DNA of 32,521 nt from NCBI GenBank assembly GCA_018700895.1, contig JABIUV010000059.1:1-32521 (forward strand), written 5' to 3'. The notes below the pieces were generated by a model. The model was not told the DNA's origin, ran no database searches, and saw only the letters and a program-made list of their open reading frames with translations. A program made the position numbers and the translations under genes. The first letter of the stretch is position 1; every line of letters begins with the position of its first letter. Below are positions 7,385 to 13,266 of the stretch, in pieces. This DNA is from Bacteroidota bacterium. Its GTDB lineage: Bacteria; Bacteroidota; Bacteroidia; NS11-12g; UBA9320.

Positions 7385-7416
7385 AAAAAGGCTCCAACAA
7401 TTGTTAGAGCCTTTTT
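7385..7416 (-). terminator. intrinsic terminator of the copper-type operon
   Basis: AAAAAGGCTC and GAGCCTTTTT pair perfectly around an inner AACAATTGTT palindrome with one mismatch between. This gives an A-flanked, T-tailed hairpin starting 20 bp after the stop of the HMA protein gene. The symmetric A and T runs would also let it work on the other strand. Confidence 0.8.
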
Positions 7417-7435: not shown

Positions 7436-7798
7436 CTATGATTTCTTTTTACAGCATCCAGCCTTGGCACCGCACGCCTTTGCTTCCTTGGGCTTACAGC
7501 AGTTGTCTAACGCCGCTTGTGCTTCAGGATTTGCGGCCATAGTAGAGGTAGCGTATCCCAAATTGCTGATAGTGGTATGAATCTGCGATTCGCTTATTTT
7601 TTTATCGTTGTAACGGATAGTAAGCATTTTGGTCTCTTTGTCCCACTCCGCAAACGAAATGCCTGGGATATCGAGGGCTGCTTCTATCTTGTCTTTACAT
7701 TTACCACATTCTCCTTTTACAAGTATTTTTTGGGTAACTGTCTTGGCAAATACACCTAGTGTTCCTACCATTAATAGTGCTAAAAATATGTTCTTCAT
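7436..7798 (-). CDS. exported heavy-metal-associated (HMA) protein with Cys-rich tail
   Basis: This 120-residue protein has a signal peptide (IFLALLMVGTLGVFA) followed by one HMA domain. Its metal-binding loop is GECGKCKDKIE (C31 and C34), on the usual beta-alpha-beta-beta-alpha-beta pattern to about residue 80. Unusually, the C-terminus carries a second thiol cluster (C100, C101, C109, C115, C116) mixed with lysines, which could hold one or more soft metal ions. HMA domains of this size carry Cu(I) between partners. Being exported and last in an operon with a TonB receptor, MbnP and MbnH, it is plausibly a periplasmic copper chaperone or buffer. Mercury or another soft metal cannot be excluded. 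Confidence 0.9.
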   Translation of the reverse strand: MKNIFLALLMVGTLGVFAKTVTQKILVKGECGKCKDKIEAALDIPGISFAEWDKETKMLTIRYNDKKISESQIHTTISNLGYATSTMAANPEAQAALDNCCKPKEAKACGAKAGCCKKKS

Positions 7799-7844
7799 TG
7801 TGTTGTTGTTTTTATATGTATTGGTTTAAAAAATTATTATTCGT

Positions 7845-8951
7845 TTAAAATGGGTTGTCATAAGCCGGGTTGTCCAAAAACTCATCGTCGGTCAAGGTTT
7901 TGAGGAACGCTACTAAAGCAGCTTTGTGCTCCTCGCTCAAGTACACCGAGTCGCGAAGTGCGTGCATATTAGGCTCCTCACTTAGGTCGGCAGTAGCATC
8001 GCTCATATCACTCAGGTAATGCTGCACTACTTCTTCTAACGTATTAAATCGTCCATCGTGCATATAGGGAGCTGTTTTTTCGACATTGCGTAGCGATGGG
8101 GTCTTGAATTTGTAGTTATCTCGAGCATTGCCATTTACCCCGCCGCGTCCTATATCTGTGACATTGGGCAGTCCGTTGGTCATATACTCACGAGTCATAA
8201 ATAAGCTATTGCCGTGACAATGGAAGCAATCTCCGCCTATGTTCTCGGGATTATTGGGGTCACGTTCTTCATTTATTGTAATCGCCTCCTCGTTATAAAT
8301 TACTTGTCCTGTTCGCTCTTGTATGGTAAATTCTTCGAGCTGCAGCTGCACACGGTCAAATTTAGAATTGGCACTAACCACGCTAAGCATAAATTGCTCC
8401 AACGCCTTGCCTATCAGTTCTTTATCTATACTTTCCGTGTCAAATGCCTTGCTAAAAGCGAGGCTGTATCGGGATGAGTTGCTCAGCTTGGCCATCACAT
8501 TGCCTATAGTCTCGTTCATCTCTGTTTGGTCTATGATGGGTTCTATGGCTTGGTGACGGAGTATATCTGACCGGCCATCCCAAAAGAAGCCGTCTAAATG
8601 CCACATTAGGTTAAAAATAGGCATAGAGTTTCGTTGGCCTATGGTCCCGTTTATTCCGGTGCTGCGAGCTAATCCATTGTCAGTGAATGCATTTTTCTGA
8701 TTATGGCACGACGCACAACTCTGTGAGCTATCTGCACTCAGTATGGGGTCGTAAAATAGCATTCGTCCTAGCTGTACGCCTTCTACTGTAAGTGCATTAT
8801 CTACTGGAATATTTACGGGAGGTAATACAGATTTATTAAAATTGAAGGTATACGGTGTCGTGCTGAATGGAGTGTCGGGCACCTCATTCACCACATCACT
8901 ACAGGCAACTGCCAATGTAGCTAATACGATATATACCAACGTTTTTTTCAT
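7845..8951 (-). CDS. di-haem cytochrome c peroxidase/MauG family lipoprotein, MbnH-like
   Basis: This 368-residue lipoprotein has its lipobox ending at Cys17 (LAVACS). It has two c-type haem sites, CASCH (C79, C82, H83) and CFHCH (C242, C245, H246). Between them is FFWDGR, whose W124 corresponds to the inter-haem tryptophan of MauG and bacterial peroxidases, and near the end is APYMHDGR, carrying a distal-ligand candidate (M297 or Y296). Classical family members reduce peroxide, while MauG and MbnH use high-valent haem to oxidise tryptophan in a partner protein. The gene starts 1 bp after the stop of an MbnP-like gene, the diagnostic partner, so MbnH is the better call than a plain peroxidase. 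The substrate would be a Trp in that neighbour. Confidence 0.88.
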   Translation of the reverse strand: MKKTLVYIVLATLAVACSDVVNEVPDTPFSTTPYTFNFNKSVLPPVNIPVDNALTVEGVQLGRMLFYDPILSADSSQSCASCHNQKNAFTDNGLARSTGINGTIGQRNSMPIFNLMWHLDGFFWDGRSDILRHQAIEPIIDQTEMNETIGNVMAKLSNSSRYSLAFSKAFDTESIDKELIGKALEQFMLSVVSANSKFDRVQLQLEEFTIQERTGQVIYNEEAITINEERDPNNPENIGGDCFHCHGNSLFMTREYMTNGLPNVTDIGRGGVNGNARDNYKFKTPSLRNVEKTAPYMHDGRFNTLEEVVQHYLSDMSDATADLSEEPNMHALRDSVYLSEEHKAALVAFLKTLTDDEFLDNPAYDNPF

Positions 8952-8952
8952 C

Positions 8953-9714
8953 TTAATTGACCTCTATTCCTGTGAATACTGAACTCATATTGCCTATCAG
9001 TTTTCGGGTAACTGGGCTTGTTGTGCTATGTGAGCTGGCTCCATCATTTGCGATATTGTAAATGTCAGGATTGCTAAATATCTCATTAAAGTCGTAGGTA
9101 ATAGTAGCTCCATTGGTATCGTCAGAGCTTATGATTTCTGCGTCCAACTCAAAATCAAGTTTGTTTTGAACTCCTGCGAGGTGAAAAACAAAGGACTCGT
9201 CAGTATTGGTCACTTTACCCTCTAAAGCTGTGAAAATATAACCATTGGTCCAGCCCCAATGCAGTGAGTTACTAAAAGGAGCTAAAGGATGACCAGCACC
9301 GTATGCATTGGGGTCACCGTGATTGATAGTAGAATCTAATCCTAGTGAAAATCCGATAGCTTTATACGTCCCATAAGGGATGTCCGTTAGCATAAAAGAA
9401 TTTGCATCTTTATGCCCCTCTATGAGAGCATATTGGTCATCGAGCATAAGTTTGGTTCCATCTTCTTTTACAAGGTAAAAATGCCCAAGAATATAAGCTA
9501 GACGACTTACCTGCACTGTTTCCAAGCTAGGCAGCACTATGTCGCTATAGTATACCAAGTCATTGGCACCTTGCTTATGGTCTATGGTGAGGCTTAGACT
9601 ACTCGTTTGGCCGGTAGTATCTATTGGTTCTGGTAATGGTTGTGTGTCATCAGGATTGCATCCTGCGAATCCGAGTCCAAGTACAACAAAAAGTGTCGCG
9701 AGTGTTTTTTTCAT
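8953..9714 (-). CDS. MbnP-like copper-binding lipoprotein
   Basis: This 253-residue lipoprotein has its lipobox ending at Cys19 (LGFAGC). The start at 9714 is chosen over an upstream one because the signal peptide begins there. The family signature is clear in the middle: NHGDPNAYGAGHPLAP, then LHWGWTNGYIFTALEG, with H132, H142, H152, W153, W155 and E165. In characterised MbnP, one tryptophan is converted by MbnH to kynurenine and the protein then binds copper tightly using His ligands and the modified residue. The gene sits directly before mbnH-like (1 bp) and after the HMA-MauE gene (5 bp). The role is inferred as capture of periplasmic or surface copper. Which Trp is modified cannot be told from sequence alone. 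Confidence 0.88.
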   Translation of the reverse strand: MKKTLATLFVVLGLGFAGCNPDDTQPLPEPIDTTGQTSSLSLTIDHKQGANDLVYYSDIVLPSLETVQVSRLAYILGHFYLVKEDGTKLMLDDQYALIEGHKDANSFMLTDIPYGTYKAIGFSLGLDSTINHGDPNAYGAGHPLAPFSNSLHWGWTNGYIFTALEGKVTNTDESFVFHLAGVQNKLDFELDAEIISSDDTNGATITYDFNEIFSNPDIYNIANDGASSHSTTSPVTRKLIGNMSSVFTGIEVN

Positions 9715-9719
9715 TTTTT

Positions 9720-10433
9720 CTAATTTAAAAGGTACATACAAACAGCCATGGCAAGCATTAGGCTATCTTCTATTATAGTGACATAGCTCATGGGTAAGTT
9801 AAATACCGTACCCAAGCAGGCACATTGTATATCTGCCTTGTGTATGACCGAACGTACGACTCCTATAAGACTTACAAACATAACGATTGCAGTGACTAAA
9901 TGTGTTATCGCGTTGTCAGAATATAAGAGATAGGCAACTCCTAGTGCTAATTCTATAAACGGAAAAACATATCCGTACCACGGAGCTTTGGCAGCTACGA
10001 TATCGTAAGACTGATAAGCTCTCGCAAAAGCGGGAATGTCTAACATTTTGAAGAACGAAAAGACTAGAAAAAATCCAGCCATAAAATTAGCCATCCATGT
10101 TTGCCATAGAAACATACCTGAGTTTGCCTCTATGAGTAGTGTACCGCCTACTAGGTAAGCTACTATAATAAGCAGCGGCTTGTAGCTTCGGGTACTCTTG
10201 GTAGACACCTGAGTGGTGTAAGATGTTGCATTGACATAGTAATTTCCTGAACCTTCTATCAGGTTTTCGATAATATCCAAGTGCGGTAGCGGTGTGCCTT
10301 TGAGTGTAGCAGTGCCTGTAGTTTGGTCTATGGTTACTTGTTTTATGGCGGTGTTGCTGTATAGTGCTTTTTCTATGCGGCTCACGCAGCTCATACAAGT
10401 AATGCCTGATATGTGTATTGTTGTTTCTTTCAT
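9720..10433 (-). CDS. HMA domain fused to MauE/DoxX-like membrane protein
   Basis: This is 237 residues from the ATG at 10433. Residues 1-70 form an HMA domain with the cytoplasmic metal loop GITCMSC (C13, C16). A short linker leads to four hydrophobic helices (about 86-103, 112-131, 155-172, 178-196) resembling the MauE/DoxX redox membrane family, followed by a C204-A-C206 pair in CACLGTVFNLPMSY and a last helix. MauE proteins are needed for disulfide handling during maturation of methylamine dehydrogenase, whose tryptophan cofactor is finished by MauG. Here the neighbour is the MauG relative MbnH, a striking parallel. It may pass reducing equivalents or copper across the inner membrane to mature MbnP. 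The spacing is 5 bp to mbnP and 7 bp from the receptor gene. Confidence 0.85.
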   Translation of the reverse strand: MKETTIHISGITCMSCVSRIEKALYSNTAIKQVTIDQTTGTATLKGTPLPHLDIIENLIEGSGNYYVNATSYTTQVSTKSTRSYKPLLIIVAYLVGGTLLIEANSGMFLWQTWMANFMAGFFLVFSFFKMLDIPAFARAYQSYDIVAAKAPWYGYVFPFIELALGVAYLLYSDNAITHLVTAIVMFVSLIGVVRSVIHKADIQCACLGTVFNLPMSYVTIIEDSLMLAMAVCMYLLN

Positions 10434-10440
10434 CCTATTG

Positions 10441-12714
10441 TTAAATTCTAAGTCTAAATCCACCATAAACCATTCGCCCGAAGATAGGTCCCCAGACTAG
10501 TCCAGCATCAAAATTTTGGTCAAAAGGATTGGCTGCTTCTTGTATCGGGTTCTCCTGTCTAAAGTTTAAGAGATTCTCTCCACCTATATACACTTCAAAT
10601 TTCTTTTTGAAAGTTTTACTTACTTGAGCGTTCCAGTTATAGAAGTTAGGAGAGAACTTATCCGTTATATCATAGAGAAAAACTCCGGAACTATAAGTTG
10701 TATCCTTGGCACCAGCTATCCGCTGTGGTCCGTACCATGTGGCGGTAGTGCTAAACTGCCAATCGGTTCGTGTACGTTGGGTGATATTGATAAACGCTCG
10801 ATGTCTGGATATGAATGGTTTTGCCATTTCATCTTGTGGGCCATTAATATTGGCGTATTTATACTTACTCACTACGTCAAACATACGATAGGCAAGGCGT
10901 ATCTCCGTTCGACGAGCAGGTGTAAGGTCGAGCTGTGTTTGTATACTATTGGCTCGTGTGCCGTTTTCCATATTGTAAAAACGTACTTCACCAGCCGTCT
11001 CACGATCTATGACTACCTCTTGCAAAAATCGGGTGTTGAAATAATCTATCCCAATAGTCGCCGGCATATACGCGAGCCTAAATTCGTGCTCAAAACTGAT
11101 ACCAGAGTTGATGGCTACCTCCTGTTCTAGTCTATAAGCCAAGGTGGGATCTGCCATTTCAAAGTTTAGGGTTCTGCCGCTGGCAAAAATATACTGATGT
11201 TGTGCTAGTGGGTTGCTGGTTCTACGTCCAGTGCCTGCAGATACACGTATGGCGGTTTTATCCTTGTTAAATCGGTACTTGCCGTGCAATCGTGGAGTTA
11301 CGGATAATCCATATATGCTATTATAATCAGCACGTATACCGCCTACCAGACTAAAGGTTTCTTTGGGTTTGTACGTGTATTCAAAAAATACGCCGGGTAC
11401 TGCTTCTTCACGTTCAAATCTAAAGCCATCGTATTGTTCTCTTACGTTGTCATATAGAAACGAGACTCCCGTTTGGTAATGATGAAAACTATTGCCAATG
11501 TAGCTCTCATACAGCAAGTTTACATACACTTGGTCGGTATGAGCTTCGTATGTTTTGCTGTTGGTTTCACCACCATATACGCTAGTCATCTCAGAGTGGT
11601 TAAAATTATATTGTGAACCAAAGCTGCTGAGCTCTCTGTCTTTTCGTGCACGGCCCAGTTTGGCAAATGCATCTATCACACGTGAGTTTATCCCAATTCC
11701 ATAAGCTGATGGGTCATCATTATAAAAAGCAAGTTGCCCAGCCTTTTGCACATTGTCGTGAAAACTAACATTGGCGGTACCTTCCAGTCCACTCTCACTG
11801 TAAAACTGCCAGCGATTCATTATTTTAAAATCTTGGCCCGTGGGCATATCCAAAAAACCATCCTTGTTTCTATCATTTTCCATTCCGCGAGTACCGTATC
11901 GGGCCAGTATTGAAGTGGCTACGTATTTGTTGATGTCTTTTACATACATCAAGTCTGTTTCGAATCTACCGCCGCTACCGGCAAACTGATCTAGCAAAAA
12001 CTTCTCTTTGCCGAAGGGTTTCTTCATTTCTATATTGATTTGACCGGCAATGCTCTCATAACCGTTTACCACGCTTCCGGCACCCTTGGTTATCTGTATG
12101 CCATTTACCCAAGCAGCTGGGATATGACTTAGCCCGTAGTAACTGTTGAGCGTACGTACACTTGGCATATACTCTCTACCTATAAGTGTGTAAAATCCGT
12201 CGAGTCCGAGCATTTTTATTTGCTTCGTACCTGTCACTGCATCGCTAAAACTTACGTCTATCGCCGGAGCATTTTCGAAGCTCTCGGAGAGGTTACAGCA
12301 CGCAGCTTTTTGAAATTCGCGTTCGCCGAGTAGTGTAGTGGTTCGTGGGTCTAGCTTACTTAGTCCGTAGGTGATGCGTTTGGCAATGACGATGGCTGTG
12401 CCAAGCTCATTAGCTTCACGTAGCTCAAATTTAACCTCTTGATCTAAATTGAGGAGTTCTATAGTATCGCTTGTATAGGATGCAAATGATGCGATTAATA
12501 TAGCGGGACCGTGATGGTGCTCTATATTAAAATCGCCGTTAGCATCCGAATATACGCCATTGTTGTTCTCTGCCCAGTGTACGAATGCACCGGCTAGAGG
12601 TTCTGATTTGTTACCGTTTTTAAAGGTGACGGTGCCTTTTATGGTATTATGCTCGTGTTGTGCGTAGGAATGTAGCACTAACACACACAGGGCAAGCCCT
12701 ATTATTTTTCTCAT
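10441..12714 (-). CDS. TonB-dependent outer-membrane receptor, copper-type
   Basis: This 757-residue protein has a signal peptide (residues 1-19), a carboxypeptidase-regulatory-like beta-sandwich (about 22-105, IKGTVTF...GVYSDANGDFNI), a plug with VNGIQITKGAGSV and YESIAGQINIEMKKP, and a C-terminal 22-strand barrel ending in GGFRLRI. Histidine clusters occur near the N-terminus (HEHN, EHHHG). The plug carries adjacent cysteines C139 and C140 in QKAACCNLSESFE, a motif I associate with Bacteroidota receptors found beside HMA and Cys-rich proteins. There is no SusD partner, so the substrate is likely a metal ion or small metal complex. With MbnP/MbnH and HMA genes downstream, copper is the best guess. 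Confidence 0.92.
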   Translation of the reverse strand: MRKIIGLALCVLVLHSYAQHEHNTIKGTVTFKNGNKSEPLAGAFVHWAENNNGVYSDANGDFNIEHHHGPAILIASFASYTSDTIELLNLDQEVKFELREANELGTAIVIAKRITYGLSKLDPRTTTLLGEREFQKAACCNLSESFENAPAIDVSFSDAVTGTKQIKMLGLDGFYTLIGREYMPSVRTLNSYYGLSHIPAAWVNGIQITKGAGSVVNGYESIAGQINIEMKKPFGKEKFLLDQFAGSGGRFETDLMYVKDINKYVATSILARYGTRGMENDRNKDGFLDMPTGQDFKIMNRWQFYSESGLEGTANVSFHDNVQKAGQLAFYNDDPSAYGIGINSRVIDAFAKLGRARKDRELSSFGSQYNFNHSEMTSVYGGETNSKTYEAHTDQVYVNLLYESYIGNSFHHYQTGVSFLYDNVREQYDGFRFEREEAVPGVFFEYTYKPKETFSLVGGIRADYNSIYGLSVTPRLHGKYRFNKDKTAIRVSAGTGRRTSNPLAQHQYIFASGRTLNFEMADPTLAYRLEQEVAINSGISFEHEFRLAYMPATIGIDYFNTRFLQEVVIDRETAGEVRFYNMENGTRANSIQTQLDLTPARRTEIRLAYRMFDVVSKYKYANINGPQDEMAKPFISRHRAFINITQRTRTDWQFSTTATWYGPQRIAGAKDTTYSSGVFLYDITDKFSPNFYNWNAQVSKTFKKKFEVYIGGENLLNFRQENPIQEAANPFDQNFDAGLVWGPIFGRMVYGGFRLRI

Positions 12715-12792
12715 GTGATTGTTCGGTGATTTTTGAATGAATGTTATAAAATGACTTCGTGGGCATCGTACGATGCTCCAATATCATTTAGT

Positions 12793-13170
12793 CTAACACA
12801 AAAACACCTGAAGCATAGAGCAGGAGGGAGGTTTGTTGCAACGAGGAGTTATGTCGTATGCGTTTTTATTATGATTCGTATTGGGATTATTCCCAATGGT
12901 AATGAAAGCCAATGGAGTATAAGGTGAAGATAATTTTGGCGTGTTTTCTGATGGCGAGGCATCCAAGAGTTTTTGTGGCACAATAAGTTCAATGCTCGTA
13001 TTGCACGATTTGCCTTGAGCCATTACACAGCAATTGGTGGTTTCTGGTTGGGGCGAATGAACAACGCTTACCGTGTCTAAATTGCCACAGCAAAAAGTAA
13101 GATCAAGATGAACGCCCACGCTCGGCATCAGGAACAACAAGGTCAATATGTAAGCTTGTAGCTTCTTCAC
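12793..13170 (-). CDS. small exported Cys-rich protein, HYC_CC_PP-like
   Basis: This is 125 residues if translation begins at the GTG at 13170 (VKKLQAYIL); a TTG at 13179 is possible but overlaps the -7 box. It has an N-terminal hydrophobic segment (ILTLLFLMPSVGV) followed by cysteine pairs FCCGN and NCCVM, single Cys in KSCNTS, and three more near the C-terminus. The pattern matches a small Bacteroidota family, named in databases after HYC, CC and PP motifs, that is often encoded just before a TonB receptor of the copper type. Here the HYC triplet is replaced by FCC. It probably binds metal in the envelope. It leads the operon, with 78 bp to the receptor gene. Confidence 0.65.
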   Translation of the reverse strand: MKKLQAYILTLLFLMPSVGVHLDLTFCCGNLDTVSVVHSPQPETTNCCVMAQGKSCNTSIELIVPQKLLDASPSENTPKLSSPYTPLAFITIGNNPNTNHNKNAYDITPRCNKPPSCSMLQVFLC

Positions 13171-13176
13171 TTGATA

Positions 13177-13202
13177 CAAAGGTAGTCATATTTCAAAATA
13201 TG
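13177..13202 (-). promoter_or_regulatory. promoter and palindromic operator candidate of the copper-type operon
   Basis: On the minus strand TACCTTTG (13177-13184) is a perfect TAnnTTTG -7 box ending 6 nt before the GTG start. Directly upstream is CATATTT-ca-AAATATG (13187-13202), a 7-bp perfect inverted repeat placed where a repressor or activator dimer would touch the polymerase. The regulator is not encoded in this window. Confidence 0.5.
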
Positions 13203-13232: not shown

Positions 13233-13266
13233 AAGGGCCCGTGTTTGGTAAAACACGGGCCCTTTT
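13233..13266 (-). terminator. strong intrinsic terminator after the DUF3078 gene
   Basis: A 14-bp perfect stem AAGGGCCCGTGTTT / AAACACGGGCCCTT has a GGTA loop and T-rich tails on both sides. It lies 28 bp past the stop of the DUF3078 gene and just before the copper operon promoter, so it insulates the two units. Confidence 0.9.

Follow-up and report, generated by a model that had tools for sequence, protein, structure and literature searches.

A Bacteroidota operon joining the MbnP-MbnH pair to a TonB-dependent receptor cassette, a candidate copper-acquisition system with an altered putative kynurenine site

Little is known about how copper passes the outer membrane in most Gram-negative bacteria. 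In methanotrophs, MbnP reportedly binds Cu(I) through one His, one Met and solvent, next to a kynurenine that MbnH forms from the first Trp of the WxW motif. Pairs of MbnP and MbnH reach far beyond the methanobactin (Mbn) producers, and some of them are found beside MbnT-like TonB-dependent receptors (TBDTs) (Kenney and Rosenzweig 2013, PMC3621798). MopE and CorA of methanotrophs are kynurenine copper proteins as well, surface-bound or secreted, made under low copper and adjoined by the di-haem peroxidase-like SACCP and CorB (PMC3423442, PMC3912023); their sequences are reported as not markedly similar to MbnP (PMC3621798).

Here we describe an MbnP-MbnH pair in a small uncultured Bacteroidota bacterium, whose draft genome of 2.4 Mb in 59 contigs is rated complete. 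The window, i.e. the whole stretch of DNA that was analysed, is 32,521 nucleotides long. On its minus strand six ORFs form an operon at 7436-13179: a HYC-like gene, a TBDT, an HMA-MauE fusion, MbnP, MbnH and an exported HMA protein, see Table 1. Two strong terminator-like hairpins enclose the set. The smallest gap between the genes is 1 bp (MbnP/MbnH) and the largest 78 bp (Cys-rich gene/TBDT). The six closely spaced same-strand genes of the first-pass annotation are all in place, and the families it had assigned (TBDT, HMA-membrane fusion, MbnP, MbnH and five-Cys HMA protein) are backed by profile matches. Refined starts are ATG 9714 for MbnP and ATG 10433 for HMA-MauE.

Table 1. Features of the six-gene operon and its borders, in coordinates of the window.
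Feature	Position	Strand	Basis or remark
Exported Cys-rich protein, HYC_CC_PP-like; opens the operon	12793..13179	-	TTG 13179 or GTG 13170 start
TonB-dependent receptor (TBDT), CarboxypepD_reg N-domain	10441..12714	-	plug motif KAACCNLSESFE (Cys139-Cys140)
HMA (ITCMSC) fused to MauE-type membrane protein, QCACLG motif	9720..10433	-	profile matches
MbnP lipoprotein, lipobox Cys19, SLHWGWTNGY	8953..9714	-	PF20243 and predicted structure
LHWGW codons 151-155 of MbnP, Trp153 the predicted kynurenine site	9250..9264	-	Leu151 replaces family Met
MbnH-like di-haem enzyme, lipoprotein signal	7845..8951	-	CASCH 79-83, CFHCH 242-246, PYMHDG 295-300
Exported HMA protein (GECGKC), five-Cys tail NCCKPKEAKACGAKAGCC	7436..7798	-	HMA profile
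Terminator-like hairpin separating the DUF3078 gene from the operon	13233..13264	-	z -6.7
Terminator-like hairpin past the end of the operon	7385..7416	-	z -5.0

The MbnP assignment, which the first-pass annotation had singled out for a profile check, is firm: the protein scores 113.4 bits against Pfam PF20243 (cut-off 27). A single-sequence phmmer search with it found no relative in the PDB, while a profile search did find one. The predicted structure (pLDDT 90.8) aligns with Methylosinus MbnP (PDB 7l6g) over 203 residues with Z 18.3 and rmsd 2.7, far above the second-best row of the structure search at Z 5.2. MbnH matches CCP_MauG with 175 bits, and among solved structures the closest to it is the di-heme enzyme 6e1c, presumably Methylosinus MbnH. 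Across 112 MbnH homologues the two CxxCH motifs and PYMHDG are retained.

Compared with the pair of Methylosinus trichosporium OB3b (7l6g, 6e1c), the locus shares the Pfam family and fold of MbnP, the WxW motif and an adjacent di-haem enzyme with the haem and PYMHDG motifs. However, MbnP reaches only 43.8 bits against the methanotroph-type, four-Cys TIGR04052 (equivalog cut-off 140), and MbnH 206.6 bits, full-length, against TIGR04039 (cut-off 362.85). Because both fall below the NCBI equivalog cut-offs, the two proteins are, by these scores, members of the wider families and not of the methanotroph-type subgroups. Further differences from the OB3b system are that MbnP is a lipoprotein here, that its only cysteine is the lipidated Cys19, so that the four-Cys motif is absent, that a Leu stands for the Met and an extra conserved His is present, and that the pair lies in a TBDT/HMA operon without an MbnB/MNIO homologue.

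Trp153, Trp155 (WxW) and His178 of MbnP are invariant among the sequences compared. Only one Met is near-invariant in the MbnP family. It lies two positions ahead of the Trp that opens WxW in 37 of 40 sequences from the phylum, and from this conservation we take it as the likely copper ligand. It is replaced by Leu in the family of the source organism (21/21), in the Schleiferiaceae-type proteins (8/8) and in sequences where MbnP is fused to MbnH (32/32); in the sister family 16 of 20 sequences retain the Met. The subfamily with Leu has in addition acquired His142, at a position where 35 of the 40 phylum sequences have a gap, as well as His229, which is invariant. In the tree it forms one clade of 96 rows (support 100/96), with members in Bacteroidota and Verrucomicrobiota and single records from Planctomycetota and Ignavibacteriota.

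We predict that this subfamily has moved towards the arrangement of two His and a kynurenine found in MopE and CorA, which are also accompanied by a di-haem enzyme; the copper of a kynurenine site would then be held by different ligands. The modified-tryptophan metal site put forward in the first-pass annotation is in line with the retained WxW, the MbnP fold and the adjacent MbnH, but the loss of the Met had been overlooked, and the conversion of Trp153 to kynurenine is a prediction. The mature lipoprotein would begin with CNPDDTQ, and in its family the six residues after the lipidated Cys contain on average 2.8 acidic ones, not clearly more than the 2.1 of other local lipoproteins. An acidic stretch at this place is the signal of surface lipoproteins (LES, PMC5080379), and an exposure of MbnP on the surface is possible.

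MbnH adjoins MbnP in nearly all sampled loci. In about 30 loci, mainly from Verrucomicrobiota and one from a Planctomycetota, a single protein with a length near 580 residues comprises both; in the one example scanned both Pfam domains are above cut-off. The near-constant adjacency and the natural fusions support that MbnP and MbnH are substrate and enzyme. In general MbnP is not rare in the phylum: it was found in 97 of 395 Bacteroidota genomes.

The first-pass annotation had suggested counting how often the six genes co-occur. In own-family genomes that carry this MbnP type, 13 loci are uncut: 11 of them contain all six genes in one and the same order, and in the remaining two HMA-MauE alone is missing; six further loci are cut by contig ends and are consistent with the same order. 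Since the order persists in relatives whose MbnP is only 40-60% identical, the arrangement is, on the evidence of these sequences, not a product of chance. The loci of Schleiferiaceae/Owenweeksiaceae are arranged as MbnP-MbnH-HMA-TBDT and carry a receptor of the same subfamily.

This ACCN receptor is near the MbnP-MbnH pair in 15 of 19 own-family loci (the others are mostly contig-cut) and in 7 of 8 from Schleiferiaceae/Owenweeksiaceae. Elsewhere it was seen in none of 20 loci of the sister family, 40 of the phylum and 59 others, by which the idea that TBDTs are general neighbours of MbnP-MbnH is rejected. That the link arose twice is unsupported, as an AU test leaves a single clade unrejected (p 0.41). 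The linkage of MbnP-MbnH, TBDT and HMA is conserved, and another set of families keeps it with the genes rearranged; this conservation argues for one common system.

The receptor itself has a CarboxypepD_reg match and a plug domain just short of the cut-off. Its CCNLSESFE-type plug motif is present in most of the closer homologues. The copper TBDTs OprC and NosA are characterised by CxxxM and HxM motifs (PMC11213822); neither was found in the sequence of the receptor. The first gene of the operon scores 19.4 bits against HYC_CC_PP (NCBIfam NF047658, cut-off 28), but despite this weak score it keeps the place of that family beside a TBDT. The HMA domains of the operon score 43 and 34 bits and also resemble MerP. 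The MauE part (PF07291) reaches 52.9 bits with a cut-off of 27; a structure search with HMA-MauE retrieved the HMA part and barely probed MauE.

We also examined the homologous receptor at 40 loci outside its own family. A HYC-like gene is beside it in 31 of them and an HMA protein in 27, while MbnP or MbnH is found in none of the 40. A cassette of HYC-like protein, TBDT and HMA protein is widespread across Bacteroidota (e.g. L291, 8443-11733), usually without MbnP-MbnH. An annotated example is that of Parabacteroides distasonis, located beside a CopZ-like HMA protein (WP_005855442/444/446): it shares the homologous receptor, the HYC-like protein and the exported HMA protein with the operon, but lacks the pair. 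A literature search on Bacteroidota copper receptors with HMA partners returned nothing on this cassette or its metal, and an iron-stimulon paper mentions heavy-metal proteins, none of which is recognisable as it. Judged from the sequences, the operon is a join of two widespread modules, MbnP-MbnH and the HYC-TBDT-HMA cassette. The first-pass annotation had presented a self-contained single system; the conserved linkage agrees with this, while it had missed that the TBDT/HMA genes form a widespread cassette of their own.

In agreement with the earlier remark that no methanobactin gene is visible, a search of the whole genome (59-contig draft) with the MbnB/MNIO family PF05114 gave no match. 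Independence from methanobactin had also been proposed, and the missing MbnB/MNIO homologue fits; the idea is, however, not new, as such pairs were described in 2013 (PMC3621798). The isolated methanotroph pairs of that study resemble ours in that MbnP-MbnH and a TBDT occur together outside an Mbn operon, but they have MbnI/MbnR regulators, whereas the Bacteroidota operon has another receptor subfamily and HMA, MauE and HYC-like partners. What is novel relative to them is the different receptor cassette, the different phylum and the altered MbnP site. The TBDT link in another gene order in Schleiferiaceae/Owenweeksiaceae and the fused MbnP-MbnH of Verrucomicrobiota are further new points, as is the genome in which a search for P-type ATPases gave no match.

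An aa3-type oxidase that includes a CuA subunit is encoded in the genome, next to genes of haem-A synthesis; there is also a Sco-like gene, and all of these were named by sequence inspection. Of three HMA domains genome-wide, two are inside the operon. A P-type ATPase (PF00122) was not matched anywhere in the 59-contig draft, while a control search with this profile found a match in 14 of 14 reference genomes. Within the limits of a draft assembly, a copper user in which no exporter is detected would suit acquisition better than resistance.

We consider it more likely than not that the operon is an envelope copper-acquisition system. MbnH, as an exported di-haem enzyme, would oxidise Trp153 of MbnP to kynurenine and thereby complete a Cu(I) site, with His178 and His142 and/or His229 as predicted ligands in place of the His/Met pair of methanotrophs. 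At the outer membrane, perhaps on the outside of the cell, MbnP could then capture copper when it is scarce. The ACC-motif TBDT would import the metal, as such or in a complex, to the periplasm, where the exported HMA protein and the HYC-like Cys-rich protein may act as carriers, and HMA-MauE may pass the copper on to the cytosol or to the assembly of the aa3 oxidase. It should be noted that copper as the metal and import as the direction are taken from what is known of the families, and that every hand-over and the surface location are likewise inferred. The copper acquisition of the first-pass annotation is partly supported by the family and fold of MbnP and by the TBDT/HMA linkage, while its copper and import parts come from the same family knowledge. 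That each step of a metal route is covered was overstated, as an inner-membrane transporter is not demonstrated among the genes.

Copper tolerance would make a different use of the same proteins: MbnP and the HMA and Cys-rich proteins would bind surplus copper in the periplasm, and the receptor would only serve to recycle or sense it. Cys-rich and HMA proteins are indeed common in resistance loci, and sequestration could stand in for the usual copper-export ATPase that was not found in the genome; on the other hand, resistance centred on an exporter looks unlikely for the very reason that no P-type ATPase was found. Further, TBDTs import, none of the genes in the operon encodes an efflux pump, a multicopper oxidase or a metal regulator, and the characterised kynurenine copper proteins such as CorA and MopE are produced at low copper. 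We regard tolerance as unlikely. Still less credit is given to the idea that the two modules have no common function, the metal-receptor cassette and the pair just sharing a promoter. Each is common without the other, and as a single ancient association is left unrejected by the AU test, the linkage may simply be inherited; but MbnP-MbnH sits within the cassette, and the association is specific and survives rearrangement in the second group of families.

The choice of metal can be questioned separately. The MbnP subfamily that lost this Met might have switched to another metal, or offer a site for some other thiophilic or His-preferring one, and the complete exchange of Met for Leu in all three groups with conserved His142 and His229, the likeness of the HMA domains to MerP and a receptor without the OprC copper motif can all be read in this way. 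Two His with a kynurenine is, however, the arrangement of MopE and CorA, and copper is the metal of the kynurenine sites described to date; a metal other than copper seems improbable to us.

Copper acquisition by the operon could be taken one step further. Tentatively, and with more doubt than confidence, we suggest that a distinct MbnP subfamily has remodelled its kynurenine copper site, His taking the place of Met, and that in two Bacteroidota groups it hands copper, as a lipoprotein, to a dedicated ACC-motif TBDT; it would be a genetically encoded scavenger needing no methanobactin. With a conserved operon that joins an MbnP-MbnH pair outside methanotrophs with a single receptor subfamily and with HMA proteins of the periplasm, both the role of such pairs and the passage of copper across the outer membrane become directly testable. 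It also suggests a copper substrate for a receptor cassette that is common in Bacteroidota, gut species included.

Other MbnP-MbnH pairs were seen in different surroundings. The same genome has a second pair, of the MxW type (contig C50, 22173-25057). Upstream of it are genes for an ECF sigma factor, a short protein that is probably an anti-sigma factor, and a periplasmic protein resembling Metal_resist (CnrX/Spy type); this is perhaps a metal-sensing locus. Many other Bacteroidota pairs are flanked by a membrane protein of about 125 aa (HCDGKC) and an outer-membrane-like protein of about 320 aa (CDICGC), e.g. at 8666-9061 and 11180-12157 of locus L108, neither of which has a Pfam or NCBIfam name. 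In nearly all loci of the sister family the pair is preceded, on its own strand, by a gene for a protein of some 640 aa (e.g. L089, 7264-9186). In the cases read this is not a receptor but a secreted M1 peptidase, and one that was scanned bears a type IX sorting domain.

Among the closer relatives, two congeners have a further MbnP-MbnH-MbnH trio, which lies immediately upstream of the six genes (L067, 2640-5707; L074, 3452-6538), and one relative (L071) has two tandem MbnP genes where HMA-MauE would stand.
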